From: Nocardioides iriomotensis
Lineage (GTDB): Bacteria > Actinomycetota > Actinomycetes > Propionibacteriales > Nocardioidaceae
Assembly (NCBI RefSeq): GCF_004168035.1
Contig: NZ_SDPU01000032.1
Span: 124,001 to 188,000, forward strand
Direction of reading: 5' to 3'
Length of the DNA: 64,000 bases
Shown: piece by piece, positions 27,499-47,001 of the stretch
Layout: the number at the start of each line of letters is the position of its first letter
How positions within the stretch are numbered: position 1 is the first letter of the stretch
Program-made: the position numbers and the translations under genes
Notes under the pieces: generated by a model
The model's database searches: none
What the model was told of the DNA's origin: nothing
What the model saw: only the letters and a program-made list of their open reading frames with translations

Positions 27499-30227
<2,729 letters not shown>

Positions 30228-30228
<1 letters not shown>

Positions 30229-30848: not shown

Positions 30849-30862
30849 GCGTCGGCCTCGGT

Positions 30863-30892
30863 TTGGGCGGCGCCGAGACGATGCGGTAATCT
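30863..30892 (+). promoter_or_regulatory. promoter of tRNA-Ile
   Basis: TTGGGC (30863-30868) and TAATCT (30887-30892) are 18 bases apart, 60 bases before the tRNA. This is a reasonable stable-RNA promoter. Confidence 0.5.
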
Positions 30893-30952
30893 CTCCCGTC
30901 GGCGCGACCGACCCGCGAGATCCTCATCCGCGGCACGTCGCGCGCTGCATGC

Positions 30953-31026
30953 GGGCCTATAGCTCAGACGGTTAGAGCGCTTCCCTGATAAGGAAGAGGT
31001 CAGAGGTTCAAGTCCTCTTAGGCCCA
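30953..31026 (+). tRNA. tRNA-Ile (GAT anticodon)
   Basis: A full cloverleaf is visible: acceptor GGGCCTA/TAGGCCC, anticodon arm CTTCC-CTGATAA-GGAAG with anticodon GAT, and T arm AGAGG-TTCAAGT-CCTCT. The discriminator base is A. The 3' CCA is not fully encoded (the genome reads ACCG). Its place after gyrA is conserved in Actinobacteria. Confidence 0.98.
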
Positions 31027-31032
31027 CCGATC

Positions 31033-31069
31033 CGAACCCCCGCTGACGCGCGTCGTCCGCGGGGGTTCG
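31033..31069 (+). terminator. hairpin terminator after tRNA-Ile
   Basis: Perfect 11-base arms CGAACCCCCGC (31033-31043) and GCGGGGGTTCG (31059-31069) form a stem seven bases after the tRNA. It may also serve the convergent small gene on the other strand. Confidence 0.8.
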
Positions 31070-31088
31070 TCGTTCCGGGCTCGGCGCC

Positions 31089-31259
31089 TCAGCCGAGCAG
31101 CAGCCAGGCCAGGCCGGCGGCGACCAGCAGCGCGACCACCACGAGCAGCGGGGCGACCCAGGAGCGTGCGGTCTCCCCGTCGCGCTCCTCCGCGCGGTCG
31201 ACGAAGGCCTGGAACATCTCCGTGGGCGCGCCGGGATCGAGATCGTCGTCGGTAGGCAT
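31089..31259 (-). CDS. small single-pass membrane protein, hypothetical
   Basis: This 56-residue frame begins MPTDDDLDPGAPTEMFQAFV, continues with a charged segment, and ends in one strong membrane helix (WVAPLLVVVALLVAAGLAWL). The acidic start, charged middle and tail anchor look like a real tail-anchored protein. It ends 20 bases from the tRNA-Ile terminator and begins 44 bases from the diguanylate cyclase stop, in the same direction, so it may be cotranscribed. No family was recognised. Confidence 0.6.
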   Translation of the reverse strand: MPTDDDLDPGAPTEMFQAFVDRAEERDGETARSWVAPLLVVVALLVAAGLAWLLLG

Positions 31260-31303
31260 GGTCCAGCAACTTACACGAACGACCCGACCCGGTCGCCGGT
31301 TGA

Positions 31304-32935: not shown

Positions 32936-33101
32936 CGGCGTTCCTCCCCGTCGGCCGGTGCAAGGCGGGGTCGTCAGACGGCGGCTGCCGGGTCCCCGAT
33001 GGTGCGAGTCAGGAGTTCGAGGATAGGGTGACGCGGCTCGCGCGCGTGGTCACTTCCCGCGAGTCCTTGACGACTCCGCGTCCGGTCTAGCCCACCCTGG
33101 T

Positions 33102-33110
33102 TGCTAGGCT
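33102..33110 (+). promoter_or_regulatory. extended -10 promoter before DLW-39
   Basis: TGCTAGGCT fits the extended -10 pattern TGnTAnnnT, about 53 bases before the start codon. A TTGACG at 33067 is too far away to be its -35. Confidence 0.35.
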
Positions 33111-33162
33111 TCACCCTCGGTCCGACGGGGTCAGGACGTTGTCGAGGACGAGAGGTTCCACC

Positions 33163-33291
33163 GTGAAGAAGCTGCTGTTCATCGCGCTCGCCGCCGCAGG
33201 TGCGGTGCTCGCCAACCGGAAGCTCAAGGCCGGCCAGCAGGAGCAGGCGCTCTGGGCCGAGGCGACCGACAGCGTCACCAAGCAGTCCTGA
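33163..33291 (+). CDS. DLW-39 family small protein
   Basis: This 42-residue product starts at GTG 33163 behind a GAGAGG ribosome site. It has a short hydrophobic N-terminus (KKLLFIALAAAGAVLANRKL) and the family tail LWAEATDS. DLW-39 proteins are named for their Asp-Leu-Trp motif and length and lie near gyrA and tRNA-Ala in Actinobacteria; here the motif reads ALW. The function is unknown and the protein probably sits at the membrane. Confidence 0.85.
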   Translation: MKKLLFIALAAAGAVLANRKLKAGQQEQALWAEATDSVTKQS

Positions 33292-33324
33292 TCCACACCC
33301 CGTCCCGCGCACGCGGGGCACTCG

Positions 33325-33400
33325 GGGGCCATGGCGCAATTGGTAGCGCACCTGCTTTGCAAGCAGGGGGTTAGGGGTTCGAGTCCCCTTGGCTCCACCA
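33325..33400 (+). tRNA. tRNA-Ala (TGC anticodon)
   Basis: The cloverleaf is complete: acceptor GGGGCCA/TGGCTCC (one G-U pair), anticodon arm CCTGC-TTTGCAA-GCAGG with anticodon TGC, T arm AGGGG-TTCGAGT-CCCCT and encoded CCA. Its 3' half is partly repeated at 34747-34781. Confidence 0.98.
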
Positions 33401-33452
33401 CAGGTCAGTCGCCGGCGCCTCGCCAGGGTCGCCCGAGTCACGGCGAGGACCG

Positions 33453-33899
33453 TCAGGACCGCACGAGGCGCAAGGTCGGCGTCGCCGGGGCGTTTGAGTG
33501 TCCGGACGGGACCTCCGCGCGGAGACTGAACCAGACTGACTTTCCCTCAGCGTGCTCCGCAACACCCCAGTCGGTGGACAAGACGTCCACGATGACCAGC
33601 CCTCGCCCACCGTCCGCGCCGAGCCGTTCGACGCCCGGCGCCACGGCGGTGGTGTCACCGGCCCCGTCGATCACGTCCACGCGCAAGGTGTCGCCGTCGA
33701 TCTCGGCCATGACAACGCAGCCGGTGCGTGCGTGCAGCACCGCGTTGGTCACGAGCTCGCTGACCAACAGCGAGGCGTTGTCACTGAGGTCGCCCACGTC
33801 GCAGGTCGCGCAGACGCCCTCGATCCACCGGCGGGCGCGGGCAGGACCATCGAGCCCCACCCCCAGCTCGATCCTCTCGCGCACCATGCCTCCAGCCAT
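33453..33899 (-). CDS. anti-sigma-type ATP-binding protein (HATPase_c, RsbW-like)
   Basis: The product (148 residues; a start at 33887 or 33884 is also possible) is a single GHKL ATPase domain of the RsbW/SpoIIAB kind. It shows the N box LVSELVTNAVLHA, G1 VDVIDGAGD and G2 GGRGLVIVDVL. Such proteins bind a sigma factor or phosphorylate a STAS antagonist. It lies just after tRNA-Ala, within 3 kb of a STAS protein and a second HATPase, suggesting a local partner-switching network. No sigma factor gene is adjacent. Confidence 0.85.
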   Translation of the reverse strand: MAGGMVRERIELGVGLDGPARARRWIEGVCATCDVGDLSDNASLLVSELVTNAVLHARTGCVVMAEIDGDTLRVDVIDGAGDTTAVAPGVERLGADGGRGLVIVDVLSTDWGVAEHAEGKSVWFSLRAEVPSGHSNAPATPTLRLVRS

Positions 33900-34082
33900 C
33901 TGCCCCGGCAGACGGACCTTCGAGGAAACTCTCCGCCCCTCCAGTACCCACCCACAAGCCTGCTAATCAGAGCCGGAATCTGTGGGGACTCCCGGAAGCG
34001 CACTAGGATCCCGATGTCACTACCAGGGCTCCTGCGACTGTCGAGGCAGAGAAGGGCTCCACTCCCGCGAGGGGAGGCTTCC

Positions 34083-34706
34083 ATGACCGAAGAACGAGAC
34101 CGGATCGCCGACGAACGAGACCAGATCGCGGACGAACGAGACCGGATCGCGGACGAACGGGAGCCGCTCGTACCGGACGGCGGATCCGGCATCGACGCCG
34201 TGCAGCTGGACCGATGGCAGCGGGCGTTCGAGGAGCGAGATGCGGCCGATCGGCGCCGGGTCGAGGCCGGGCAGCTGCGCGACGAAGCGGCGGAAGATCG
34301 GGCGAACGGCGGCGGCCTTGCCGACGAGCCTGAGGCAGACGAACGCGAGCATGCCGCCAACCGGCGCGAGCGCGAGGCGAACCGGCGAGAGCGAGCGCTC
34401 GACCACCAGGATCGCGACGACCTCCTGCGGGTGGTCGGCCCCGACCTCGTCGAGGTCGTGGAGGCGTCCATCAGGATGCTGCTCGAACGCGCGGACCAGC
34501 GCGACGTGCGCGCCGAAGCACGAGACAGAGCGGCCGAACGCCGCGACGCGGCCGCCGAGGTCGCGGGACGTGAGCCGGACCGTGCGCGATGGGATCGGGG
34601 GCTGGCCGCCGTGGACCGGATCCTCAGCGGTGAGGACCGCGACGAGGCAGCGGCTGACCGTGCCGAGCTCATCGCCATCATCAGGACCCTCCTCGCAAGA
34701 GGTTGA
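34083..34706 (+). CDS. repetitive charged coiled-coil protein (IADERD repeats)
   Basis: The product (207 residues) starts at ATG 34083 six bases after GGGGAGG; an in-frame ATG at 34014 lacks a ribosome site. It opens with three heptads of the form ERDxIAD and continues with Arg/Glu/Asp-rich helix (RREREANRRERALDHQDRDD, later RAEARDRAAERRDAAAEV). Two less charged segments (DDLLRVVGPDLVEVVEASIR and the C-terminal ELIAIIRTLLARG) may be packing helices. It has no membrane segment or signal peptide and no recognised family. Similar repeats occur in actinobacterial signalling proteins; function unknown. Confidence 0.7.
   Translation: MTEERDRIADERDQIADERDRIADEREPLVPDGGSGIDAVQLDRWQRAFEERDAADRRRVEAGQLRDEAAEDRANGGGLADEPEADEREHAANRREREANRRERALDHQDRDDLLRVVGPDLVEVVEASIRMLLERADQRDVRAEARDRAAERRDAAAEVAGREPDRARWDRGLAAVDRILSGEDRDEAAADRAELIAIIRTLLARG
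34092..34161 (+). repeat. 21-base tandem repeat in a coding region
   Basis: Three 21-base units (34092, 34113, 34134) plus a partial fourth encode the ERDxIAD heptads. They differ by only one or two bases, pointing to recent expansion. Confidence 0.85.
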
Positions 34707-34746
34707 GGCGCGATCGTTCGCGACGCTCACGTCAGCCGATGGGCAC

Positions 34747-34781
34747 GCAGGGGTGAGGGGTTCGAGTCCCTGTGGCTCCAC
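34747..34781 (+). repeat. partial duplicate of the tRNA-Ala 3' end (att-like)
   Basis: GCAGGGG, AGGGGTTCGAGTCCC and TGGCTCCAC occur here in the same order as at the tRNA-Ala 3' end (33366-33398). Several mismatches fall in the T stem, and the 5' two thirds of a tRNA are absent. This is what integration at a tRNA leaves behind; the interval 33401-34746 would be the insert. Confidence 0.7.
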
Positions 34782-34786
34782 TCCCT

Positions 34787-35728
34787 CTACATCGCGGTCA
34801 GGACGATGCTGCAGCCACCGGACGGGCCGTTGGTGATGAACAGGTCGTCGACCAGCTGCCGCGCCACCCACAGCCCCATCGGCTGACGCTCCCCGGGATG
34901 ACGCAGGCCGGTCAGCGGGTCCAGGTCTCCCGGTCCGCAGTCCTCGACCCGACAGGTCAGCAACGCCACGTCCGCCCACAGCGTCACGGACACGGGAGGG
35001 GCACCGTGGACGAGGCCGTTCGCAGCGACCTCGTGCACCGCCATGAGGAACTGCTCGACCGTGTCGGAGGACACGGCGCTGGCATCGCGCGCAGCGGCCA
35101 GGAGCAGGTGGCGAGCCGGCGTCAGGTCGTTCAGGTCGTCGATCGTCGCCGTCGCGGACGGTCGCCAGGTCGGCAGGGTCGGAACCCGGGCGAGCGGGCT
35201 GGCCAGGAACGCCGCGGGGTCGACGTACTCCCCGTTGGGGCGGCTGGTCGGGCCGGCGCCGAACGAGGCGTGCGTGGCCCGGACGGCCTCGATCACGGGG
35301 GCCGGCGTCGTCCTGGTGTCGTAGGTGCACAACGCGCGGAACGGGTAGGCGGCGAGGGCTTCGTCGACGCTGGACTCGTAGCGGTTCCAGGCGCCCTGCG
35401 CCGCGTGGTCCCGGCCCAGTGGAACCGTGCCGGTCACCCAGAGCTCCGTCGTCTCCGGTAGCTCTGCCAACCGCCGCTGGTAGCTGAACAGTGTCCTCGA
35501 AGGCTCCAGGTAGAGCTCCTCGTCGAACCCGTACTCGAGCCGTGGCGCGTCTCCGAGCGCCCGGCGCATCAATGCGACCCGGTCCCGGGTGCCGTGGACC
35601 AGCACCTGACCGCCGGACTCGAGCCCCTCGGCAACGAACGCCTGGGTGCCCTCGACCAGCCCGTCGTCGGTGGAGTGCAGCAGGAGACCGTGGCTGTAGT
35701 CGGGGTGCGCGCCGGCCAGGGGTGTCAT
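34787..35728 (-). CDS. MEDS-domain anti-sigma-type ATPase
   Basis: The product (313 residues from ATG 35728) has an N-terminal MEDS (DcmR-like sensory) domain at ~10-180 (DYSHGLLLHSTDDGLVEGTQ, later FRALCTYDTR) and a C-terminal GHKL ATPase at ~200-313 with N box VHEVAANGLVHGAP, G1 VEDCGPGDLDP and G2 LWVARQLVDDLFI. This is the build of RsbA-like sensor/anti-sigma proteins. Its ATG overlaps the stop of the upstream MEDS-STAS gene (ATGA), so the pair is made together. MEDS domains are proposed to sense small organic compounds; the ligand here is unknown. Confidence 0.85.
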   Translation of the reverse strand: MTPLAGAHPDYSHGLLLHSTDDGLVEGTQAFVAEGLESGGQVLVHGTRDRVALMRRALGDAPRLEYGFDEELYLEPSRTLFSYQRRLAELPETTELWVTGTVPLGRDHAAQGAWNRYESSVDEALAAYPFRALCTYDTRTTPAPVIEAVRATHASFGAGPTSRPNGEYVDPAAFLASPLARVPTLPTWRPSATATIDDLNDLTPARHLLLAAARDASAVSSDTVEQFLMAVHEVAANGLVHGAPPVSVTLWADVALLTCRVEDCGPGDLDPLTGLRHPGERQPMGLWVARQLVDDLFITNGPSGGCSIVLTAM

Positions 35729-36540
35729 CCGGGCGCCTCCATCAAGAGTCCTGGTTCGTGTCCGACGCCGAACAGCTGCAAGAGACGGTCCACCTGCGGC
35801 TGTGCGCCCCGCAACCGGACCTGGCCGCCGCGCCGGCGATAAGGCTCCGTCCCGCCCACCAGCGTGCGGATCCCGCCGATGTCGACGAAGTAGAGCCCGC
35901 TCAGGTCCAGGACGAAGAGCGGGCACGGCGTCCCGGTCGTTGCGGCCAGCAGCACCGAGCGAAGGATGTCCCGGTTGGAGATGTCGAGCTCGCCCGACAC
36001 GGCGAGGCCGGCCTCCTCGAGCGGTGCCGTCTGGAGCAGCTCCTCCCGCATCCCGGCACCGTGGGCCGTGCTGACGGAGCCGATCCGGTCCAGGGACTCG
36101 CGAGCCGGGTACTGGCACATCACGGACACCGGCCGCGACCTGCACACCTCGTCCGTCGCCCGCTCGATCTCGGCCTGTCGGCCTTGTGGCATCACGCCCC
36201 AGGTGGCCGTCGCGTCCGCCGACCAGCGGACGGAGGGGTACCGGTGCAGCGCCTCCTCGATGGCACGTTCCTGCCACGCGAGATCGTGGACTCCTTGGTC
36301 GGCCGGGACGACCTCGATCTGGCCGCTGGCCATCGCGTCGACGGCGTCCGGCTGGTCCAGGAGCAGCGCTGCCAGCGATCGGGCGAGCGACACGTCCTCA
36401 CGCTCGACGTAGAAGATCTTCGCGCCGACGTCCAGGCCGCGCCGGACCCACGCCGCCACCCCGAGACGTCGCTGCGGCTCACCTTCGTAAACGAGGAGGA
36501 GATGACCGTCCCAACCCGGTCGCCACCCGACGGGATCCAC
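35725..36540 (-). CDS. MEDS-STAS protein, anti-sigma antagonist type
   Basis: The 271-residue product has a MEDS domain (~10-160; HLLLVYEGEPQRRLGVAAWV, MCQYPARESLD) and a STAS domain (~170-265; SGELDISNRD, FVLDLSGLYFVDIGGIRTL). STAS antagonists normally carry a phosphorylated Ser in a DSSG motif; here it reads Asp220-Ile-Gly-Gly, so the usual phosphosite is missing. The GTG start has no ribosome site but lies six bases after a -10 hexamer, consistent with a leaderless mRNA. It is coupled to the downstream MEDS-ATPase, its probable partner. Confidence 0.82.
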   Translation of the reverse strand: MDPVGWRPGWDGHLLLVYEGEPQRRLGVAAWVRRGLDVGAKIFYVEREDVSLARSLAALLLDQPDAVDAMASGQIEVVPADQGVHDLAWQERAIEEALHRYPSVRWSADATATWGVMPQGRQAEIERATDEVCRSRPVSVMCQYPARESLDRIGSVSTAHGAGMREELLQTAPLEEAGLAVSGELDISNRDILRSVLLAATTGTPCPLFVLDLSGLYFVDIGGIRTLVGGTEPYRRRGGQVRLRGAQPQVDRLLQLFGVGHEPGLLMEAPG

Positions 36541-36546
36541 GAAGGA

Positions 36547-36552
36547 AATCTA
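36547..36552 (-). promoter_or_regulatory. leaderless -10 element of the MEDS-STAS gene
   Basis: TAGATT on the minus strand ends six bases before the GTG start, so transcription should begin at or next to the start codon. No ribosome site is present. Confidence 0.55.
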
Positions 36553-36631
36553 CGCCGCTTCCGACCGCCGGCTCCGTCCGATCCGCACGCTGTCTGGACA
36601 GCAGCCGCCGCCGTTTCGGGAGGCACGGCAC

Positions 36632-36674
36632 GCCCCCGCTCACGGACATGTGGGGGCACCGGGAGCGGGGGCGC
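36632..36674. terminator. strong hairpin between divergent operons
   Basis: Perfect 11-base arms CGCCCCCGCTC (36632-36642) and GAGCGGGGGCG (36664-36674) enclose a 21-base loop. It looks like a bidirectional terminator, but no gene ends here. It may insulate the two promoters or be left from a lost gene. Confidence 0.5.
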
Positions 36675-36971
36675 GGTTCGGGTCCATGCCGGTGTTGGGG
36701 TGGCCAGGACCCGGCTCAGGGGTGTGGGCATCCGTTTCGGATAGCTGGGATTCGCGGCCGTGGACTCGACCGAACGTTCGTCGGGGACGACGCTCCTGGG
36801 GTCGGCGGGGTGCGCGTCGGCGGCGCAGGAGTGGCCTTGCCGCCCAGGTTAGGCGAATCACTTGCGGTGTCCAACGGTCAGTTCCCTGTACCGCCTCGAA
36901 CCGCTCACCGACCGGCTGGGAGCAGGCGTTGACGTGCCCGCAAGACCGGTGCAACAGTGATGTCACAAAGA

Positions 36972-36981
36972 TCGTATACGA
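36972..36981. promoter_or_regulatory. candidate GntR/FCD operator before the ABC operon
   Basis: TCGTATACGA is a perfect 10-base palindrome with the GTATAC core common in operators of FCD-type GntR regulators. It lies 40 bases before the first gene of an operon whose last gene is such a regulator, a natural autoregulatory arrangement. Confidence 0.5.
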
Positions 36982-37021
36982 AATGACGAGTACGGAGCCG
37001 CCTCCCGCAAGGAGATGAACC

Positions 37022-38695
37022 GTGACGACCAGGCAGTCTCGGATGCCGTCGACACACCCACCCAGAGCCGTCAGGACCGCACTCCTTCCACTTGTCGTGG
37101 CGGGGATGCTGCTGCTCGGCGCGTGCTACCCGGTGCAGCCGCGCGCGGCGTCGCCCGACCGTGAGGACGTCACGACGGTCAGCGCGGAAGGCGACCAGGT
37201 CCGCGAGGGAGGTGACCTGGTGATGGGCCTCTCGGCCGACCCCGACGTGCTCGACCCGACGACGTCGTCGTCCCTCTACACGCGCTACGTCATGAGCTCG
37301 ATCTGCGAGAAGCTCTACGACATCGACGCCGAGGGCTCGATCGTGCCGCAGCTGGCGACCGACCTGCCGGAGATCGAGGACCAGGGTCGCACCGTGCGGA
37401 TCCCGCTGCGCGACGGCGTCGAGTTCGCCGACGGCACGCCCTTCGACGCTGAGGCGGTACGGCGCAGCCTGGAGCGACACCTCACCCAGGAGGACTCGGC
37501 CCGGGCCGCCGAGATGGGCCCGATCGAGGACATCGAGGCGGTCGACGACAGCACCGTCGAGCTGCACTACGAGACGCCGTTCTCCCCGATCACCGCCAGC
37601 CTCGCCGACCGCGCCGGGATGATCATGAGCCCGAAGGCGCTCGACGACCTCGGCGACGACTTCGGCAACAACCCGGTCTGCGTGGGACCGTTCAAGTTCG
37701 TCGAGCGGGTGCCGGCGACGTCGATCGTGGTGGAGAAGGACCCGCGCTACTACGCCGCGGACGAGGTCCACCTCGACACGATCACCTACCGGATCATGAC
37801 CGACGCCAACATTCGGGCCGCCAACCTGCAGTCAGGCGACGTGCAGGTGGTCGACTCGGTGTCGCCGACGACGATCGACACCCTGCGCCGCGAGCCCGGG
37901 ATCGGGCTGCTGCAGACCGGCTCGCTCGGCTACCAGGCGATCACCTTCAACGTCGGCAACACCGACGGCGTCGGCGAACCACCGGGGAAGGTGGACTCAC
38001 CGATGGCCGGAGACCCGCGGCTGCGCCAGGCGTTCGAGCTGTCGCTGGACCGCGAGGCCCTGGTGAACTCCGTGTTCAGCAACTGGTTCGAGCCGGCGTG
38101 CTCGCCGATCTCGCCGGACACCGAGTTCGCCACCGAGGCGAGCAACGCCTGCCCGCCGTACGATCCGAAGAAGTCCCGCGCGCTGCTCGAGCGGGCCGGG
38201 GTGCACACGCCGGTGAAGCTGACCATGAAGGTCACCAACACTCCGGACACGCTGCGGCTCGCGCAGGCGATCCAGGGCAGCGTCTCCGCGGGCGGTTTCG
38301 ACGTCGAGATCGAGCCGGTGGAGTACACCACGCTGCTCGACAACCAGAGCAACGGTGACTTCCAGGTGCTCCAGCTCGGCTGGTCCGGGCGCATCGACCC
38401 GCACGGCAACATGTACGCCTTCCTCGCCACCGGCCAGTCCTCCAACTACTCCGGCTACAGCAACGAGGAGGTCGACGACCTCCTGACCGAGGCGGCCGAG
38501 CAGGTCGACATGGACCAGCGCGCGAGGACGTACGGCGAGGTCGTCACCCAGGTGCAGAAGGACGACCCGCTCATCTATCTCTACCGCCAGCGCAACCTCA
38601 CCGCCTACTCCGACGACCTCACCGGTGTGAGCACCTTCGCCGACGGCGTCGTCCGGCTCAGCCGCGCCGGCTTCGTGGAAGGGGACCAGGACTGA
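37022..38695 (+). CDS. ABC importer substrate-binding lipoprotein, peptide/opine/nickel family
   Basis: The 557-residue product starts at GTG 37022 behind AAGGAGA. It has a lipoprotein signal peptide ending in the lipobox LLLGAC (Cys ~36) and a SBP_bac_5 (DppA/OppA) fold, with the family segments DVLDPTTSSSLYTRYVMSSI, VRIPLRDGVEFADGTPFDA and the hinge region DPRLRQAFELSLDREALV. It should bind short peptides or related compounds outside the membrane and pass them to the two permeases encoded next. A GntR-type operator candidate lies upstream. Confidence 0.93.
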   Translation: MTTRQSRMPSTHPPRAVRTALLPLVVAGMLLLGACYPVQPRAASPDREDVTTVSAEGDQVREGGDLVMGLSADPDVLDPTTSSSLYTRYVMSSICEKLYDIDAEGSIVPQLATDLPEIEDQGRTVRIPLRDGVEFADGTPFDAEAVRRSLERHLTQEDSARAAEMGPIEDIEAVDDSTVELHYETPFSPITASLADRAGMIMSPKALDDLGDDFGNNPVCVGPFKFVERVPATSIVVEKDPRYYAADEVHLDTITYRIMTDANIRAANLQSGDVQVVDSVSPTTIDTLRREPGIGLLQTGSLGYQAITFNVGNTDGVGEPPGKVDSPMAGDPRLRQAFELSLDREALVNSVFSNWFEPACSPISPDTEFATEASNACPPYDPKKSRALLERAGVHTPVKLTMKVTNTPDTLRLAQAIQGSVSAGGFDVEIEPVEYTTLLDNQSNGDFQVLQLGWSGRIDPHGNMYAFLATGQSSNYSGYSNEEVDDLLTEAAEQVDMDQRARTYGEVVTQVQKDDPLIYLYRQRNLTAYSDDLTGVSTFADGVVRLSRAGFVEGDQD

Positions 38696-39651
38696 TGGCC
38701 ACCTACCTGCTCAACCGGCTCTGGCAGTCGCTGGCGACGCTCTTCCTCGCCTCGGTCGTCGTCTTCGTCGGCGTGCGGGCCCTGCCCGGCGACCCCGCGC
38801 TCGCCCTCGCAGGCGAGGAGGCCGACCCCGCCACCCTCGCCGCCGTGCGCGCCGACCTCGGGCTCGACCAGCCGCTCGTCGCGCAGTACGGCGCCTTCGT
38901 GAAGAACCTCCTCCAGGGCGACCTCGGCACCTCCATCGCGACCGGCGTGCCGGTCACCGACCTGATCGCGACGACGCTGCCGGTCACGCTCTGGCTCAGC
39001 CTGTACGCCGTCACCATCGCGATCGTCGTCGGCATCGGCGCCGGCGTCGCGGCGGCCGTGCACCGCGGCCGCTGGCCCGAGTGGTTCGCCAACGGGTTCA
39101 CCCTGGTCGGCCTGTCGGTGCCCAGCTTCTGGCTCGGCATCCTGGCGATCCTCTACCTCGCGGTCGGGCTGCGCTGGTTCCCCGCCTCCGGGTACGTCGC
39201 CGTGAGCGAGGAGCCCCTGCGCGGGCTCTACTACCTGACCCTCCCGGCCGTCGTGCTCGGCACCGCGCTCGCGGCCGTCGTGATGCGGCAGACCCGGTCG
39301 TCGATGCTCGACACCCTCTCGGCCGACTACGTCCGCACCGCCCGGGCCAAGGGACTGCGCAACCGGCACGTGCTGACCCGGTTCGCGCTGCGCAACTCCC
39401 TGATCGTCGTCGTCACGATCATCGGCCTGCAGCTCGGCGGTCTCGTCTCCGGTGCGGTCGTCACCGAGCGGATCTTCGGCCTGCCGGGCTTCGGCAAGCT
39501 CACGCTCGACAGCGTGTTCACCCGCGACTACCCGGTGATCCAGGCGGTCGTGATCATCACGACGTTCGCCTACATCGTCATCAACCTGGCGATCGACCTC
39601 CTCTACTCACTGATCAACCCCCGGATCCGGGTCGGAGGGAGCACCCGATGA
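38695..39651 (+). CDS. ABC importer permease, DppB/GsiC type
   Basis: The 318-residue membrane protein has six helices and the DppB-family start YLLNRLWQSLATLFLASVVV with the GDLGTSIATGVPV motif. The EAA loop (YVRTARAKGLRNRHVLTRFA) contacts the ATPase. It starts at an ATG overlapping the lipoprotein stop by one base. Together with the next permease it forms the channel of the importer. Confidence 0.93.
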   Translation: MATYLLNRLWQSLATLFLASVVVFVGVRALPGDPALALAGEEADPATLAAVRADLGLDQPLVAQYGAFVKNLLQGDLGTSIATGVPVTDLIATTLPVTLWLSLYAVTIAIVVGIGAGVAAAVHRGRWPEWFANGFTLVGLSVPSFWLGILAILYLAVGLRWFPASGYVAVSEEPLRGLYYLTLPAVVLGTALAAVVMRQTRSSMLDTLSADYVRTARAKGLRNRHVLTRFALRNSLIVVVTIIGLQLGGLVSGAVVTERIFGLPGFGKLTLDSVFTRDYPVIQAVVIITTFAYIVINLAIDLLYSLINPRIRVGGSTR

Positions 39652-40535
39652 GCGAAGCGACCCCCGTCACCCAGACCGCCGAGATCGACCTGGGCGGCCA
39701 GCGCGGCCAGGTGCTGCGCCAGATCGCGCGCAACCCGCTCGGCGTCGTCGGCGGACTGCTGCTGCTCGCCGTCGTGCTCACCGCGGTGCTCGCGCCCCTG
39801 CTCGCGCCGTACTCCCCGGAGCAGGTCCACTTCGACACCCCGTTCCAGCGCGCCTTCACCGTCGGCTTCCCGCTGGGCACCGACGACCTGGGCCGCGACA
39901 TCCTGTCGCGGATCGTCTACGGCACCCGCGTCTCCCTGCTGGTCGGGGCGCTCGCCGTGCTGCTCGCGGTCGTGGTCGGCACCCCGCTCGGCCTCCTCGC
40001 CGGGTACGTCGGATGGGTGGACGTGATCGTCTCCCGGCTGACCGACCTGACCCTGGCGTTCCCGTTCCTGATCATCGCCGTCGGGCTCGCGGCCATCAAC
40101 GGACCCAGCGTCGGCAACGCCGCCGTCGCGCTCGGCATCGCCCAGGTGCCGACGATGGTGCGCGTCGTGCGGGCGGAGACGCTGCGGCACAAGGAGCTCG
40201 AGTTCGTCCTGGCGGCGCGCAGCCTCGACGCCGGTGGCGGCCGGATCCTCGGCCAGCACATCCTGCCCAACGCGCTGTCGGCGGTGATCGTGCAGGCGAC
40301 TGTGATCATGCCGGTCGCGGTCATCGGCGAGGCCCTGCTGTCCTTCCTCGGCCTCGGCATCCAGCCGCCCACGCCGAGCCTCGGGATCATGCTGTCCGAC
40401 GCGCAGCAGTACATCTTCCGTGCGCCCACCGCGGCCGTCTTCCCCGGCCTCGCGATCGCGGTGATCTGCCTCGGCTTCAACCTCTTCGGCGACGCGCTCC
40501 GCGACGCCCTCGACCCCACGACCAGGAAGCGGTGA
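39648..40535 (+). CDS. ABC importer permease, DppC/GsiD type
   Basis: The product (295 residues from ATG 39648) is the second channel subunit. It has an N-terminal OppC_N helix (ARNPLGVVGGLLLLAVVLTA), the family motif FPLGTDDLGRDILSRIVYGTR and the EAA loop FVLAARSLDAGGGRILGQHI. The ATG overlaps the previous stop by four bases. The frame is open further upstream, but that part is the shadow of the first permease. Confidence 0.93.
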   Translation: MSEATPVTQTAEIDLGGQRGQVLRQIARNPLGVVGGLLLLAVVLTAVLAPLLAPYSPEQVHFDTPFQRAFTVGFPLGTDDLGRDILSRIVYGTRVSLLVGALAVLLAVVVGTPLGLLAGYVGWVDVIVSRLTDLTLAFPFLIIAVGLAAINGPSVGNAAVALGIAQVPTMVRVVRAETLRHKELEFVLAARSLDAGGGRILGQHILPNALSAVIVQATVIMPVAVIGEALLSFLGLGIQPPTPSLGIMLSDAQQYIFRAPTAAVFPGLAIAVICLGFNLFGDALRDALDPTTRKR

Positions 40536-42340
40536 CCGTGAACCGTCGGACGGCCTTCGTCCCTCCCCCGCAGCACACCACGCGGCCCACGCTGCGCGGC
40601 CGGTTCGGAATGTCCGCCTCGACGCACTGGCTGGCGAGCTCGTCGGCGCAGGCCGTGCTCGAACGCGGCGGCAACGCCTTCGACGCCGCGGTCGCCGGCG
40701 CGTTCGTGCTGCACGTCGTGGAGCCGCACCTCAACGGACCGGGCGGCGACATGACCGGCCTCATCGCCACCGCCGACGACCCACGCCCGAAGGTGCTCGT
40801 CGGGCAGGGCGTCGCCCCGGCCGGAGCGACCATCGAGCACTACCGCGGCGAGGGCCTCGACCTGGTGCCCGGCGCCGGCGCGCTGGCCGCCGCCGTCCCC
40901 GGCTCGGTGGACGCCTGGCTGCTGCTGCTCCGCGACCACGGCACCTGGGAGCTGGCCGACGTCCTGGCCTTCGCGATCGAGTACGCCGAGGAGGGGCACC
41001 AGATCTCGCCGCGGGTCGCGCACACGATCGCGCAGATGGCCGCCCTGTTCCGCGAGCACTGGCCCAGCTCCGCCGAGCTCTGGCTGCCCGGCGACTCGGT
41101 GCCCGAGGACGGCGCCGTGCTGCGGCTTCCGGCGTACGCCGCCACCCTGCGCCGGCTGGTGAAGGAGGCGTCGGGCGCCGCCGACCGGGCCGGCCGCATC
41201 GACGCCGCCCGCAGCGCCTGGGGCACCGGCTTCGTCGCCGAGGCGGTCGAGGAGTTCGTGCGCACCCCGCACCGGCACGCCGACGGCGGCGACCACGCCG
41301 GCGTCATCACGCGCGCCGACATGGCGGGGTGGAGCGCGTCGTACGAGGAGCCCGTCACGCTCGACTTCCACGGCGTCACCGTCTGCAAGATCGGCCCGTG
41401 GGGGCAGGGCCCCGCGCTCCTGCAGACGCTGGCGATCCTGGCCGGCTTCGAGCCGCACGAGATCGACCCGTCCACCGCCGACGGTGCGCACCGCGTGCTC
41501 GAGGCGCTCAAGCTCGCGCTCGCCGACCGGGACGCCCACTACGGCGACGCGGACGTCGCGCTCGACGTGCTGCTCTCCGAGGAGTACGCCGCGGCACGGC
41601 GTGCGCTGATCGGGCCGGAGGCCTCGCACGAGTTCCGGCCCGGCGACGTCGGCGGAGCCCCGGCGTACCGCCCACCCCTGATCACCGAGTACCTCGGGCC
41701 CGAGGCCGGCGCCGCCGCCGGCGAGCCCACGGTCAGCGTCGCAGGGGCGACGCGCGGCGACACCTGCCACATCGACGTCGTGGACCGGTGGGGCAACTTC
41801 GTGTCGGCCACCCCGTCCGGCGGCTGGCTACAGTCGTCGCCGACCATCCCCGAGCTCGGCTTCTGCCTCGGCAGCCGGCTGCAGATGACCTGGCTCGACG
41901 AGCGCTCGCCCTCGGCCCTGCGCCCCGGCCGCCGGCCGCGCACGACGCTCACCCCGACCCTGCTGCTGAAGGACGGACGGCCGTGGTGCGCGCTCGGGAC
42001 CCCGGGCGGCGACCAGCAGGAGCAGTGGCAGCTGCTCTACCTGCTGCGCGTGCTGGTCGGCGGGTACACCCCGCAGCAGGCGATCGACGCGCCGGCGCTG
42101 CACACCACCTCGATGCCGAGCTCGTTCTGGCCGCGCACGTGGACCCCGGGCGGCGCCGTCGTCGAGGACCGCCTCGGCGACGAGGTGATATCCGCCCTCG
42201 AGCAGCGCGGCCACGTCGTCACCCGCAGCGGCGACTGGTCGCTCGGCCGGCTCTCCGCCGTCACCCGCGACCCCGACACCGGCCTCCTGGAGGCCGCCGC
42301 CAACCCGAGAGGAGCGCAGGGCTATGCCGTCGGCCGCTAG
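40532..42340 (+). CDS. gamma-glutamyltransferase family protein, cytoplasmic
   Basis: The product (602 residues from GTG 40532; GTG 40538 is also possible) is an N-terminal-nucleophile hydrolase of the gamma-glutamyltransferase family. The large-subunit start GNAFDAAVAGAFVLHVVEPH is typical, and the autoprocessing/nucleophile Thr411 lies in RGDTCHIDVVDRWGNFVSAT. A glycine motif TPGGDQQEQWQL follows. There is no signal peptide, so it should act in the cytoplasm on compounds brought in by the surrounding ABC importer. Glutathione or other gamma-glutamyl peptides are the likeliest substrates, but some family members are acylases or cephalosporin acylases. Confidence 0.88.
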   Translation: MTVNRRTAFVPPPQHTTRPTLRGRFGMSASTHWLASSSAQAVLERGGNAFDAAVAGAFVLHVVEPHLNGPGGDMTGLIATADDPRPKVLVGQGVAPAGATIEHYRGEGLDLVPGAGALAAAVPGSVDAWLLLLRDHGTWELADVLAFAIEYAEEGHQISPRVAHTIAQMAALFREHWPSSAELWLPGDSVPEDGAVLRLPAYAATLRRLVKEASGAADRAGRIDAARSAWGTGFVAEAVEEFVRTPHRHADGGDHAGVITRADMAGWSASYEEPVTLDFHGVTVCKIGPWGQGPALLQTLAILAGFEPHEIDPSTADGAHRVLEALKLALADRDAHYGDADVALDVLLSEEYAAARRALIGPEASHEFRPGDVGGAPAYRPPLITEYLGPEAGAAAGEPTVSVAGATRGDTCHIDVVDRWGNFVSATPSGGWLQSSPTIPELGFCLGSRLQMTWLDERSPSALRPGRRPRTTLTPTLLLKDGRPWCALGTPGGDQQEQWQLLYLLRVLVGGYTPQQAIDAPALHTTSMPSSFWPRTWTPGGAVVEDRLGDEVISALEQRGHVVTRSGDWSLGRLSAVTRDPDTGLLEAAANPRGAQGYAVGR

Positions 42341-43955
42341 CACACCGCTGCTGAGGATCACCGACCTCGAGGTCAGCTACCACGGGACCCCCGTGCTGCA
42401 CGGCATCGACCTCACCGTCGCCGAGGGCGAGCGCGTCGCGCTCGTCGGCGAGTCCGGCTCGGGCAAGTCCACGACCGCCGCCGCGGTCATCGACCTGCTG
42501 CCCGCGGGCGGCGCGGTCACGCGAGGACGCATCGAGTACCGCGGCGACGACGTCACCCACGCCGACGACAAGCGGATGCGCCGCCTGCGTGGGCGCCAGG
42601 TCGGGCTGGTCCCGCAGGACCCGATGTCGAACCTCAACCCCGCCACGCGGGTGGGCAAGCAGATCGCCGAGACCCTGGTCGCGCACGGGGTCGCCTCCGG
42701 CCGCGAGGCCAGGAAGCGCGCGGTCGAGCTGATGGGCGAGGCCGGGATCCCCGACGCCGACAAGCGCAGCAAGCAGTACCCCCACGAGTTCTCCGGCGGC
42801 ATGCGCCAGCGGGTCCTGATCGCGATCGCCCTCGCCTGCGAGCCCGACCTGCTGGTCGCCGACGAGCCGACCTCCGCCCTCGACGTCACGGTGCAGCGCC
42901 GGATCCTCGACCACCTCGAGACGCTGCGCAGCCGCCGCGGTACGTCGATGCTGCTGGTCACCCACGACCTCGGGCTCGCCGCGGACCGCGCGGACCGGGT
43001 CGTGGTGATGCAGCACGGGAGGATCGTCGAGGACGGTCCGGCCCACGAGCTGCTGCGCGACCCGCAGCACGAGTACACCCGGCGGCTGGTCGCCGCGGCG
43101 CCCTCGGTGTCCACCGCCACCCGCACCGGCGCGGTTGCGACCAGCGACGAGGATCCCCAGCAGGACAAGGGATTGGAGCCGATCCTCGTCGCCGAGCACC
43201 TCACCAAGGAGTACTCCGTCCGTGGCCGGCGCGAGCGCCTCACCGCGGTCGACGACGTCTCGTTCGCCGTGCGGGCGGGCACCACGACGGCCGTCGTCGG
43301 GGAGTCCGGCTCGGGCAAGACGACGGTCGCGCGGATGGTGCTCGGTCTCGAGACACCGACGTCCGGCGAGGTCCGTGTAGCCGGCGAGCACGTCGCCACC
43401 GCCAAGGGTGCGCAGCGCCGCGCGATCCGTCGGGCGATGCAGCCGGTGTTCCAGGACCCCTACGCGTCGCTCAACCCGATGTTCACCGTCGAGCACATCG
43501 TCGACGAGCCGCTGCGCGTCTTCGACGTCGGCGACCGACGCAGCCGCCGGGCCCGGGTCGCCGAGCTGCTCGACCACGTCGCCCTCCCGCGTGACCTGGC
43601 GCAGCGGCACCCCAACGAGCTGTCCGGCGGGCAGCGCCAGCGCGTCGCGATCGCGCGAGCGCTCGCCCTCGACCCGCGGCTCGTCGTGTGCGACGAGGCG
43701 GTGTCGGCGCTCGACGTGCTGGTTCAGGACCAGATCCTGACCCTGCTCGGCGACCTGCAGCGCGACCTCGGCCTGTCCTACCTCTTCATCACCCACGACC
43801 TGGCCGTCGTCCGTCTCGTCGCCCACGACGTGCTGGTCATGCAGCAGGGCAAGGTCGTCGAGGCCGGCACCGTCGACGACGTCTTCGAACGGCCCGGCTC
43901 CGACTACACCCGGGAGCTCCTCGCCGCCATCCCCGGCGCGGACGTCTTCACGTGA
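42324..43955 (+). CDS. fused double ATP-binding protein of the importer (DppD-DppF / GsiA type)
   Basis: The 543-residue product contains two ABC ATPase domains. Domain 1 (~8-255) has Walker A GESGSGKST, signature FSGGMRQRV and Walker B LLVADEPTSALD. Domain 2 (~285-535) has Walker A GESGSGKTT, signature LSGGQRQRV and LVVCDEAVSALD. In the second Walker B the usual DEP reads DEA. E. coli GsiA of the glutathione importer is fused in the same way. The ATG overlaps the previous gene by 17 bases. Confidence 0.93.
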   Translation: MPSAASTPLLRITDLEVSYHGTPVLHGIDLTVAEGERVALVGESGSGKSTTAAAVIDLLPAGGAVTRGRIEYRGDDVTHADDKRMRRLRGRQVGLVPQDPMSNLNPATRVGKQIAETLVAHGVASGREARKRAVELMGEAGIPDADKRSKQYPHEFSGGMRQRVLIAIALACEPDLLVADEPTSALDVTVQRRILDHLETLRSRRGTSMLLVTHDLGLAADRADRVVVMQHGRIVEDGPAHELLRDPQHEYTRRLVAAAPSVSTATRTGAVATSDEDPQQDKGLEPILVAEHLTKEYSVRGRRERLTAVDDVSFAVRAGTTTAVVGESGSGKTTVARMVLGLETPTSGEVRVAGEHVATAKGAQRRAIRRAMQPVFQDPYASLNPMFTVEHIVDEPLRVFDVGDRRSRRARVAELLDHVALPRDLAQRHPNELSGGQRQRVAIARALALDPRLVVCDEAVSALDVLVQDQILTLLGDLQRDLGLSYLFITHDLAVVRLVAHDVLVMQQGKVVEAGTVDDVFERPGSDYTRELLAAIPGADVFT

Positions 43956-43962
43956 GCGCGCC

Positions 43963-44658
43963 GTGAACGCGAGCGGTCACGGGGGCCGACGCGCCGACGA
44001 GGTGCTGCGCTCGCTGCGTGCCGAGATCGTCGCGGGCACCTACCCGGCCGGGTCCCGGCTCAAGGAGCCGACGCTCTGCGAGGCCTACGGCGTCTCCCGG
44101 GTGCCGGTGCGCGAGGCGCTCAAGCAGCTCGAGGCGGAGGGCTTCGTCACCAGCGTTGCCTACGCCGGCGTGCGCGTCGCACACATCGACCGGTCCGAGG
44201 CGGTCGACCTGTTCACCGTGCGCACCACCATCGAGGAGCTGACGGTACGGCGGTGCGCGGAACGGTTCCGGGCGGAGCGGGACGACCCGGAGGTGCACGA
44301 GTTCGGGAGCCGGCTCGACACGCTTGTCGAGGCCGGTCTCGGCGGTCTCGGCGACCCGGACCGCTCCGACCTGCCGCCGCTCAACACGGAGTTCCACCTG
44401 GCGCTGGCGGAGTTCAGCGGCAACGCGTCGCTGCTCGCGCTGTTCCGGCAGATCGCCGCCAAGATCGAGTGGCTCTACGGCATGGACGTCCAGGTCCGCG
44501 GCGAGCACTCCTGGGACGAGCACGCCGAGATCGCCGCCGCCGTCCAGGCCGGCAAGGTCGCCGCGGCCGGCCGGCTGATGAAGCGGCACGTCCAGAACTC
44601 CCTGGACGGCTACCTGAAGCGGCACACCCCCGACGCCACGTCGATCCCTGGAAAGTGA
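43963..44658 (+). CDS. GntR-family regulator, FCD subfamily
   Basis: The 231-residue product has an N-terminal winged helix (~10-75; LRAEIVAGTYPAGSRLKEPT, VSRVPVREALKQLEAEGF) and an all-helical FCD ligand domain (~90-220) with metal/ligand positions in NTEFHLALAEFSGN and DEHAEIAAAV and a late His in LMKRHVQNSL. It starts eight bases after the ATPase gene and is probably the last gene of the importer operon. It is the likely reader of the TCGTATACGA palindrome ahead of that operon. Confidence 0.92.
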   Translation: MNASGHGGRRADEVLRSLRAEIVAGTYPAGSRLKEPTLCEAYGVSRVPVREALKQLEAEGFVTSVAYAGVRVAHIDRSEAVDLFTVRTTIEELTVRRCAERFRAERDDPEVHEFGSRLDTLVEAGLGGLGDPDRSDLPPLNTEFHLALAEFSGNASLLALFRQIAAKIEWLYGMDVQVRGEHSWDEHAEIAAAVQAGKVAAAGRLMKRHVQNSLDGYLKRHTPDATSIPGK

Positions 44659-44665
44659 GTCCTGC

Positions 44666-45415
44666 TTGAACCACCGGTCCGACCGCGCCGACGGTCTGTC
44701 CACGTCCCTCATGCTGGTGCTGTCCTTCGGCACCGGGATGCTCGACGCTGCCACCTACCTCGGCCTGCACCAGGTGTTCACGGCCAACATGACCGGCAAC
44801 GTGGTCTTCGTCGGCCTCGGCCTGGCGAACGCCGACGACGTGCCGCTGCTCCGCGCGACCCTCGCTCTCGTCGGGTTCGTCGTCGGCGCCACCACCGCAG
44901 GCCTGCTCCAGCGCGGACGCAAGGCCTGGCCGAACTCCGACGGCGTCGCGGCCACGGTGCTGATCGTCGCCGCGGTCGTGGTCGGCACGAGCGCGGTCGT
45001 CCTGCACACCGGTGACCTCGGGGAGATCGGCCTCGACCTGCTGACCGGCGCGCTCGGCTGGGCGATGGGCGCGCAGGCGGTCGCGGCCCGGCGCGTGGCC
45101 GTCGGCGACGTGTCGACCGTCGTGGTCACCTCGACCCTGGCCGGCCTGTTCGCCGAGGCCGTCTGGTCCGGCAACACCGCCGGTCACGCGGCGACCCTGC
45201 GACGCGCCGGTGCCGTCGTCACGATGATGGGCGGCGCCGTCGCCGGTGCCTTCCTGCTGACGGCGACGAGCATCGCGCTCGCGGTCGCGGTCCCGGCGGT
45301 GCTGCTGCTCGTCGTCGGGCTGGTGACGCTGACCCGGGTGCTACTGCGCCGCCGCCAGCCGGTCGAACATGACGGCGTCGTGGGCGCAGAAGACCGTGAC
45401 GCCGTCCGGTCCTGA
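44666..45415 (+). CDS. DUF1275 (YoaK-like) membrane protein
   Basis: The 249-residue product starts at TTG 44666 and has about six membrane helices. It carries the family features [20 protein letters not shown], the NMTGN motif and the repeat-like [19 protein letters not shown]. The function of this widespread family is unknown. Seven bases separate it from the GntR gene, so it may belong to the importer operon. Its last 25 codons overlap the convergent metallo-hydrolase gene, and the tail there looks like a read-through of that gene's complement. Confidence 0.88.
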
Positions 45416-46168
45416 CGTCTCGCTGCGCGCGACGAGGTCGCGCAGCCGCTCCTGGTTCGCCAGCCGGGCGGTCTTGTCCATCTGCACCAGGGTCTGGAAC
45501 ACCCGGAGCCCGCTGGGGCACGACGGCGGCCGCTCCACCTCGCCGTGGAAGAAGAAAGCGTCGCCCGCGTGAAGCAGCCAGCCGTCGTCGCCCGGCCGGC
45601 GCACGGCGACCGCGGAGTGACCGCGGGTGTGACCGCGCAGCGGCAGCATCAGCACGTCGTCGCCGACCACCGGGATCGCGGTGAAGCCGTGCCAGGCCTC
45701 GCCGCCGCTGCCGTGCTCGGTCCAGCGCGGCCCGTGCGCCCACTGCTGCTCGACGTACCGGCCCTTCTCCTTCGGGCTCCGGCGGGCGCGGGCCGCGTCG
45801 AGCTCGTCGCGCATGACGTGCACGCGGGCGTCGGGGAAGTCCGAGAGCCCGCCGGCGTGGTCGAGGTCGAGGTGCGTGAGCACCACGTCGGTCACGTCGG
45901 CGGCGGAGAACCCGAGACCCTCGACCTGGGCCACCGCCGGCTCCGCCGGGTCGAGCGCCGCCCCGAGCACCGCGCGGGTCGGGCCGAGCCGTTTGGGGTC
46001 GGCCAGGTCGCCGGTGCCGAACCCGGTGTCGACGAGGACCAGACCGTCGGGCCGTTCGACCAGCAGGCAGTGCGCGACCATCCGCTCGGGCATCACCCGA
46101 AGCCTGCCGAGCGGGGGTCGGAACGAGGCGCAGTCGAGGTGGTGCACGCGGGAGACCGAGGAGCTCAC
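45341..46168 (-). CDS. metallo-beta-lactamase fold hydrolase
   Basis: The 275-residue product has the zinc motif [10 protein letters not shown] (HxHxDH form HLDLDH), the start [12 protein letters not shown], the second-metal segment [13 protein letters not shown] and [13 protein letters not shown]. This arrangement is typical of AHL-lactonase-like and general MBL-fold hydrolases; the substrate is not predictable. It is convergent with the DUF1275 gene, overlapping by 75 bases, and divergent from the SURF1 gene 29 bases away. Confidence 0.9.
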
Positions 46169-46185
46169 GCCCGCATCGTGACACG

Positions 46186-46191
46186 TACGCT
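46186..46191 (+). promoter_or_regulatory. leaderless -10 element of the SURF1 gene
   Basis: TACGCT ends six bases before the GTG start. With only 29 bases between divergent genes and no ribosome site, a leaderless mRNA is the simplest reading. Confidence 0.5.
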
Positions 46192-46197
46192 CGACGT

Positions 46198-47001
46198 GTG
46201 CCCTCCCCCGTCCGGACGCTGACGTCGCCGCGCATGCTCGCGCTGCACGCGCTCGGCGTCGCGGCGGTGACGGTCGCCGTGCTCCTCGGGATCTGGCAGT
46301 ACGACGCGTGGCAGGCGGGCCGCGCGCTGGCCGCCCGCGACCTGGCGGACGCGCCGGCGGTGGCGCTCGACAGCGTCCTCGGCCCGGACGACCCCTACCC
46401 GGGCGACAAGGTCGGGCAGCCCGTCGAGCTGACGGGTCGCTGGCTCCCCGACAGCACGGTCGAGGTGCTGGACAAGGCGCTCGACGGGCGGCCCGGCCGG
46501 TGGCTGGTCACCCCCGTGGCGGTCTGTGGGGCCGGAGCCGACTGTGCGAGCGCGCCCGCGATCCTCGTCGTGCGCGGCTTCCTCCCCGACGGGTCCGACG
46601 CCCCGACCGCACCCTCCGGGCAGGTCGACCTGACCGGTTGGCTGCAGCCCGGCGAGGGCGAGGGCCTGCCCGATCGCGACCCGACCGACGCGCAGCTCCC
46701 CGAGCTGCGGATCGCGAGCGCGGTGCAGCACGTCGACACCGACCTCTACGGCGGCTACGTCATCACCGACGAGCCCGTGCCCGGGCTCGAGCCGGTGACC
46801 CCGGCCGCGCTGCCGAAGCCCGACTCGTTCACTTCCCTGCGCAACCTGTTCTACGCCGGCGAGTGGTGGGTGTTCGCCGGCTTCGCCGTGTTCCTCTGGT
46901 GGCGCTGGGCCCGCGACGAGCTCGAGCGGGTGGCGGCGGCCACAGAAGAGGACGACGCCGACGAGCCCGCGCCGACCCCTGAGATAGCGTCGGCCCCGTG
47001 A
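46198..47001 (+). CDS. SURF1 family protein
   Basis: The 267-residue product has two membrane helices flanking an outer domain, the SURF1 topology: an N-terminal helix (LHALGVAAVTVAVLLGIWQY with WQ after it), the motif VELTGRWLPDSTVEV, and a C-terminal helix (WWVFAGFAVFLWWRWARDE). SURF1 proteins assist cytochrome c oxidase assembly. It heads a four-gene set in which each start overlaps the previous stop by four bases. Confidence 0.88.
   Translation: MPSPVRTLTSPRMLALHALGVAAVTVAVLLGIWQYDAWQAGRALAARDLADAPAVALDSVLGPDDPYPGDKVGQPVELTGRWLPDSTVEVLDKALDGRPGRWLVTPVAVCGAGADCASAPAILVVRGFLPDGSDAPTAPSGQVDLTGWLQPGEGEGLPDRDPTDAQLPELRIASAVQHVDTDLYGGYVITDEPVPGLEPVTPAALPKPDSFTSLRNLFYAGEWWVFAGFAVFLWWRWARDELERVAAATEEDDADEPAPTPEIASAP

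Follow-up and report, generated by a model that had tools for sequence, protein, structure and literature searches.

Operon layout and identity of the hydrolase

The DNA analyzed here is a stretch of 64,000 nt from Nocardioides iriomotensis (hereafter the window; all coordinates are positions within it, and genes lie on the + strand unless stated). At 37022-44658 it carries six genes arranged head to tail that encode a lipoprotein, two permeases, a PF01019 enzyme, a fused ATPase, and a regulator (Table 1). An operon combining import genes and a hydrolase with its own GntR/FCD regulator, as put forward in an earlier note on this DNA, was thereby confirmed. Its description as packed with overlaps held in substance, with three overlapping junctions, while the other two of the five are small gaps (in gene order, a 1-bp overlap, a 4-bp overlap, a 2-bp gap, a 17-bp overlap, and a 7-bp gap). 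The extent drawn for the operon stood for the six genes and missed a gene encoding a DUF1275 membrane protein, the single DUF1275 match in the genome, which starts 7 bp past the stop codon of the regulator gene and is the probable last (seventh) gene of the operon. The regulator carries both the GntR helix-turn-helix and the FCD domain that define the FadR-type class, and a GWSGR(I/V/P)DP block was found in the 33 operon-linked solute-binding proteins (SBPs) aligned.

Table 1. Features of the operon and the palindrome upstream of it
Feature	Position	Strand	Basis and remarks
Palindrome TCGTATACGA, candidate operator of the operon's GntR/FCD regulator	36972..36981		40 bases 5' of the first start codon
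Family-5 solute-binding lipoprotein (SBP)	37022..38695	+	PF00496 (SBP_bac_5), E 2.3e-79; lipobox LLLGAC
ABC permease, DppB/GsiC-like	38695..39651	+	PF00528 (BPD_transp_1) and PF19300
ABC permease, DppC/GsiD-like	39648..40535	+	PF00528 (BPD_transp_1) and OppC_N
Predicted LmbA2991-type Ntn-hydrolase, GGT superfamily, cytoplasmic	40538..42340	+	PF01019; GTG start at 40538; 600 aa
Fused double ABC ATPase, DppD-DppF type	42324..43955	+	two ABC_tran stretches, one oligo_HPY
GntR-family regulator with FCD ligand domain	43963..44658	+	PF00392 and PF07729
DUF1275 (YoaK-type) membrane protein	44666..45415	+	PF06912, E 4.1e-32

The enzyme begins with VNRRTAFVPPPQHTTRPTLRG and has no hydrophobic leader, in good agreement with its earlier designation as a gamma-glutamyltransferase (GGT)-family protein devoid of a signal peptide. 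Its top matches among PDB chains were 6J3A (E 4.6e-206) and 6J3I (E 2.1e-205), which bear the titles 'Structure of LmbA2991HD' and 'Structure of LmbA2991T421A'; the 6J3A chain, with Thr421 and a length of 617, fits the D420/T421 site and the 420 + 197 aa given for LmbA2991 of Streptomyces lincolnensis in the available text of Zhong et al. (2017; PMC5519988). The enzyme was identical to 6J3A at 347 of 574 aligned positions (MAFFT; 56% by BLASTP), and to E. coli GGT at 145 of 527 (27.5%). When an AlphaFold model of the enzyme (mean pLDDT 81.9, pTM 0.89) was ranked against solved structures, 6J3A came first (TM 0.90), followed by 2NLZ, titled cephalosporin acylase, and then by precursor forms of GGT, while HpxW (5HFT) came 47th; two-chain structures are at a disadvantage in this ranking. 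The comparison with GGT and acylases proposed in the earlier note thus bore out a GGT-superfamily fold for the model, with LmbA2991 and the acylase standing ahead of the GGT precursors. By both sequence and fold, LmbA2991 was the closest characterized relative among the PDB chains, and on these grounds the enzyme is classified as an LmbA2991-type hydrolase of the GGT superfamily. The two proteins also share the GDTCH self-cleavage motif and a Q/R/M/T/T set of pocket residues. Asp and Thr at the D408-T409 site were kept in 159 of 159 aligned rows (repeats of the same genome included), and the enzyme is predicted to cleave itself between D408 and the nucleophile T409.

The chemistry of these relatives is described in the available portions of PMC5519988, according to which Ant6 and LmbA2991 give the same product of C-C hydrolysis, with a conversion by LmbA2991 of about 37% of that by Ant6. 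Oxalic acid was identified there as the co-product in the Ant6 reaction, and an oxalyl-Thr intermediate was proposed for both enzymes. The same portions report 48.4% identity between LmbA2991 and LmbA, call the intrinsic role of LmbA2991 unclear, and describe actinobacterial GGT homologues as awaiting a function. The C-C hydrolases LmbA and Ant6 of lincomycin and anthramycin biosynthesis belong to the same lineage of GGT homologues but act within antibiotic clusters on an L-DOPA-derived pyrroline, a distinction drawn here from their description rather than from sequence.

The earlier note had proposed glutathione or gamma-glutamyl chemistry for this enzyme, a proposal that found no support. 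With the GGT equivalog model TIGR00066 the enzyme scored 239.3 and thus missed the cut-off of 357.85, which E. coli GGT (786.3) and one PF01019 paralogue in the same genome (contig C15, 422) passed, while a second paralogue (contig C29, 289.9) also fell below. Although the enzyme shares with canonical GGT the fold, the nucleophile Thr, and the oxyanion Gly-Gly, the residues of the E. coli pocket whose roles are given in the available text of PMC8062742, namely Arg114, Gln430, Asp433, Ser462, and Ser463, are replaced by Gln90, Arg447, Met450, Thr469, and Thr470, respectively. In an alignment that took one sequence from each locus (111 in total, that of the window among them), the replacements were conserved (110 Q, 111 R, 109 M, 109 T, and 111 T at the five places), as were T409 and the oxyanion pair G490-G491 (111 of 111 each). 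The pocket characteristic of canonical GGT (Arg114, Asp433, Ser462-Ser463) is accordingly missing from the enzyme, whereas the Ntn-type Thr and the oxyanion Gly-Gly are present. At the same five places, C15 has Arg, Glu, Asp, Ser, and Ser, and C29 has Arg, Glu, Asn, Gly, and Asn. The substrate of the enzyme is thus probably not a gamma-glutamyl compound, as far as can be judged from these residues and scores.

Conservation of the gene set and its association with the palindrome

The gene neighborhoods were compared, with gene presence judged by tblastn, in 80 loci, the best of at least 557 confirmed relatives of the enzyme; here, "GntR" denotes a GntR match close to the enzyme gene with 30% identity or more and does not imply orthology. 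The ATP-binding cassette (ABC) transporter genes, GntR, and DUF1275 occurred together in 22 loci (L039 by virtue of a short DUF1275 match downstream), ABC and GntR in 5, and GntR and DUF1275 in 12, while DUF1275 alone was seen in 3, GntR alone in 1, ABC alone in 1 (a 3.6-kb contig), and none of them in 36. All 27 loci that possess the six genes carry them on one strand and in the order of the window, a layout unlikely to be due to chance. DUF1275 is divergent and upstream in 36 of the 80 loci. Outside the 80, the order SBP-permease-permease-ATPase-ATPase-enzyme with separate ATPase genes was found in L138, L139, L143, and L166, and in L157 and L158 the transporter genes share the strand of the enzyme in a different order; L157, L158, and L166 belong to other classes of the phylum. 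In L143, from the same genus as the window, the SBP-B-C-D-F-enzyme series is followed by GntR on the opposite strand and by DUF1275. At E ≤ 1e-100, the enzyme had relatives in 21 of the 39 genomes searched (own included) and in one of six other genomes of the genus, indicating a patchy distribution of the unit; when the phylum was sampled, a match at E ≤ 1e-60 was obtained in 33 of 396 genomes (own included).

Two observations concern transport genes in Arthrobacter and a locus of that type. In 12 Arthrobacter loci lacking the ABC operon (L079:6322-7824 and 11 more), a gene of the major facilitator superfamily (MFS) directly precedes the enzyme gene, as if the transporter had been swapped. In addition, the locus on WNZI01000035.1 (L032), titled Vibrio cholerae strain 35D, is of the Arthrobacter type, with DNA 80-85% identical to Arthrobacter agilis, A. 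cheniae, and A. bussei, and probably reflects contamination or a mislabelled public genome.

Palindromes of the TnGT..ACnA kind constitute the operator consensus of GntR/FCD (FadR-type) regulators. Within the window, TCGTATACGA with at most one mismatch gave two matches, compared with 0.25 expected (two of 100 shuffles reached two), and GTATAC occurs once. In the genome of 4,713,567 bp the palindrome was counted once, as was a reversed control pattern; since the control is equally rare, the genome count by itself is no evidence, and the weight rests on comparison across loci. When the 350 bp in front of the operon were searched for the box in the 80 loci (the box of L002 falls outside the counted stretch), [TC]GTATAC[AG] was present in 32 of the 40 loci with GntR and in 3 of the 40 without, and bare GTATAC in 35 and 3, respectively. 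The background of the 8-mer in the rest of the same loci was 11 copies in 1.32 Mb, equivalent to 0.003 per 350 bp. The three box-bearing loci without GntR (L004, L009, L057) all have a divergent DUF1275 gene. In an extended set of 118 records, comprising the 80 loci, 37 further loci, and the window, a GTATAC box stood ahead of the operon in 38 of the 43 records with a nearby GntR and in 3 of the 75 without. L143 has one box before the SBP gene and a second between GntR and DUF1275. GTATAC was absent throughout the record of L166.

Relatedness was taken into account with a FastTree tree of the enzyme that covered 111 of the 118 records (L040, L045, L050, L055, L061, L079, and L137 are missing as they have no full-length called protein). 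Among 10 independent pairs on supported branches that differ in GntR, the box followed GntR in 6-7 and the opposite was seen in none (median p 0.016, range 0.016-0.031); likewise, the ABC genes followed GntR in a mean of 7.3 of the 10 pairs, again with no opposite case (median p 0.016, range 0.004-0.06). The comparative evidence thus links a palindrome of the TnGT..ACnA kind to the regulator, and the proposal in the earlier note that the palindrome 40 bases upstream serves as an operator gained support: TCGTATACGA is very probably the operator of the GntR/FCD regulator.

Proposed function and alternative explanations

From gene content, enzyme subfamily, conserved linkage, and the association of box and regulator, all read from sequence, we consider it likely that the operon forms a regulon for import and cleavage that is centered on an LmbA2991-type acyl hydrolase and acts on a peptide-like compound of non-gamma-glutamyl type. 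The lipoprotein and the Dpp-type ABC transporter would import a small peptide-like or amino-acid-like compound into the cytoplasm, where the hydrolase, after putative self-cleavage between D408 and T409, would use its new N-terminal Thr to attack the acyl group, giving an acyl-enzyme that is then hydrolyzed. FCD regulators as a class bind small carboxylates, and the regulator here may sense the compound or its product and control the operon together with DUF1275 through the GTATAC palindromes, probably as a repressor that would render the operon inducible by its substrate. The DUF1275 protein may move the substrate or the product. This family is listed in TCDB as distantly related to the MFS, as stated in the available text of PMC7778945, and a metallo-amidohydrolase gene neighbors some members, for which a role in carrying amides or in exporting amide products has been suggested (PMC12316277, in the portion available). 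The best PDB matches of the SBP were mixed (5u4o, GsiB 1uqw, AgaA 6hlx, and peptide and nickel binders), so the SBP was dismissed as a guide to the ligand and no ligand was inferred from it; the PDB matches of the GntR regulator named no ligand.

Several findings weigh against this proposal. Transporter, regulator, and DUF1275 are all absent from 36 of the 80 loci and also from the seven whose enzymes come closest to LmbA2991 (L150-L156; 74-87% identity to 6J3A; probably Streptomyces), which implies that the enzyme can function in other genetic settings; the window enzyme, with its transport operon, differs from these seven in this respect. The presence of ABC genes changes 24 times on the enzyme tree, five of the 43 GntR loci (L037, L045, L059, L064, L140) have no box, and DUF1275 went with GntR in 4.1 of the 10 pairs (opposite 0; median p 0.125), which was not significant with relatedness controlled. 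As to the pocket, the available text of PMC8062742 notes that the Arg and the Ser pair are missing from some extremophile GGTs and that BlGGT R109S retains 85% activity, so that the pocket changes alone may be compatible with gamma-glutamyl chemistry.

An operon for the import and cleavage of glutathione or gamma-glutamyl dipeptides, as envisaged in the earlier note, would be consistent with the PF01019 membership of the enzyme and with the NCBIfam comparison, in which the SBP was best matched by GsiB, while Gsi models ranked in the top three for each permease and the fused ATPase. The E. coli iaaA-gsiABCD locus likewise combines a family-5 SBP, two permeases, a long fused ATPase (gsiA), and an Ntn-hydrolase gene (iaaA), but its gene order is different and its Ntn partner is an isoaspartyl dipeptidase. 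In the operon of the window, all Gsi equivalog cut-offs were missed (GsiA 467.6 vs 1077, GsiB 173.8 vs 594, GsiC 296.6 vs 463, GsiD 246.8 vs 484), as was that of GGT. The fused ATPase was rejected as a mark of gsi, since six relatives (L138, L139, L143, L157, L158, L166) have separate ATPase genes and the fusion is hence not diagnostic; the claimed mirroring of gsi is thus reduced to a generic likeness. The genome, moreover, holds a separate GGT (C15) that passes the cut-off and encodes the mycothiol enzyme MshC (592.8 vs 485.1), with no glutathione synthetase (GshB) over its cut-off in the genome (best 25.3 vs 299.05), and LmbA and Ant6 are stated in PMC6085292 to have no activity of gamma-glutamyl transfer or hydrolysis. 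On family cut-offs, the conserved pocket replacements, and genome context, the glutathione/gsi explanation was discarded, and we regard it as very unlikely. The interpretation of the earlier note was, on the whole, partly supported. A second match to the MshC model (L182, G000:C10:57471-58682) lies below the cut-off and carries one in-frame TAG, with an open stretch of 478 residues in one frame.

It is even less probable that the genes are neighbors only by position, with no connection between enzyme and transporter. The many bare-enzyme loci among the 80 and the altered order of transporter and enzyme in L157 and L158 would fit such an arrangement. The overlapping reading frames, however, argue against it, as do the invariant position of SBP, permease, and permease 5' of the enzyme in all 27 six-gene loci, the recurrence of this order with separate ATPases in L138, L139, L143, and L166, and the joint changes of GntR and ABC in the independent pairs. 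A stronger, though still doubtful, contender is the general scavenging of peptides or N-acyl-amino acids, in which an aminopeptidase-like or acylase-like Ntn-hydrolase would act on imported di- or tripeptides. The Dpp type of the transporter and the structural rank of 2NLZ directly after LmbA2991 are in keeping with it, as are an aminopeptidase P gene that overlaps the enzyme gene by 4 bp in L149 (6998-10209), an acetamidase/formamidase adjoining the enzyme in L166 and two genes off in L161, and an amidase two genes off on the other strand in L008. Such neighbors, however, vary by lineage, so that each may be accidental.

Another alternative, which we hold to be unlikely, is that the operon takes up and cleaves an oxalyl conjugate, either an N-oxalyl amino acid or a meta-cleavage-like C-oxalyl compound, via an oxalyl-Thr intermediate, with the amine or carbon product being used and the oxalate handled by DUF1275. 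The shared product of LmbA2991 and Ant6, the oxalic acid released by the latter, and the intermediate proposed for both point in this direction, although the substrate tested with LmbA2991 came from another pathway and was converted less well than by Ant6 (PMC5519988, as far as available). A DUF1275 gene also lies in the uctB-oxc-uctC-duf1275 region of Acetobacter aceti, according to the available text of PMC3720670. HpxW, which we take to be an oxamate amidohydrolase, belongs to the same superfamily as the enzyme (30% identity over 326 columns), but it stands far behind LmbA2991 in the structure ranking, a comparison of fold relation only. The MFS genes preceding the enzyme in Arthrobacter might be read in the same sense, as the one member scanned was of the lactate/oxalate-formate kind; it matched the oxalate/formate family below the cut-off, and the model nearest to it was that of an L-lactate transporter (304.5, with a cut-off of 320). 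No oxalate genes turned up among the scanned neighbors, which were not systematically searched for them. Oxalate degradation in the genome itself was set aside, as the best oxalyl-CoA decarboxylase match scored 219 against a cut-off of 739; oxalate, if made, would therefore be exported or used otherwise.

The extended form of the oxalyl explanation, that the operon embodies the physiological role of the LmbA2991 family in importing natural oxalyl conjugates, cleaving them through oxalyl-threonine, and disposing of oxalate via DUF1275, seems quite unlikely. If it were true, DUF1275 would be a transporter of oxalate (or a small carboxylate), and this catabolic family would be the source from which lincosamide and pyrrolobenzodiazepine biosynthesis recruited its C-C-cleaving LmbA enzymes.

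Returning to the import-and-cleave regulon, all of its parts come from known families, and the open literature, with most subscription journals outside the search, yielded no account of an LmbA-type enzyme linked to a transporter, of such a regulon, or of this combination of parts. The operon ties an LmbA2991-type enzyme to a transporter, to a regulator with a likely operator, and to DUF1275, and thus provides a context for a membrane family that has no known function. This context means that the natural substrate can be sought through the ligand of the lipoprotein and the release of the regulator. It also serves as a warning that such genes should not be named glutathione hydrolases.

Flanking features in the window

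At the Rfam gathering threshold, the only non-coding RNAs matched in 28000-46500 of the window were two tRNA genes, for tRNA-Ile and tRNA-Ala, located in 30953-33400 with 2.3 kb between them; no rRNA match was obtained in the same range. Beside the operon, two overlapping frames on the - strand (34787-36540) contain MEDS domains, one together with STAS and the other with HATPase_c_2, and perhaps represent an anti-sigma or sensor pair; the true start of the longer frame is probably further in. On the other side, a - strand gene at 45341-46168 adjoins a SURF1 gene and encodes a protein of the metallo-beta-lactamase fold that is AHL-lactonase-like, with scores far under the cut-offs of that group.

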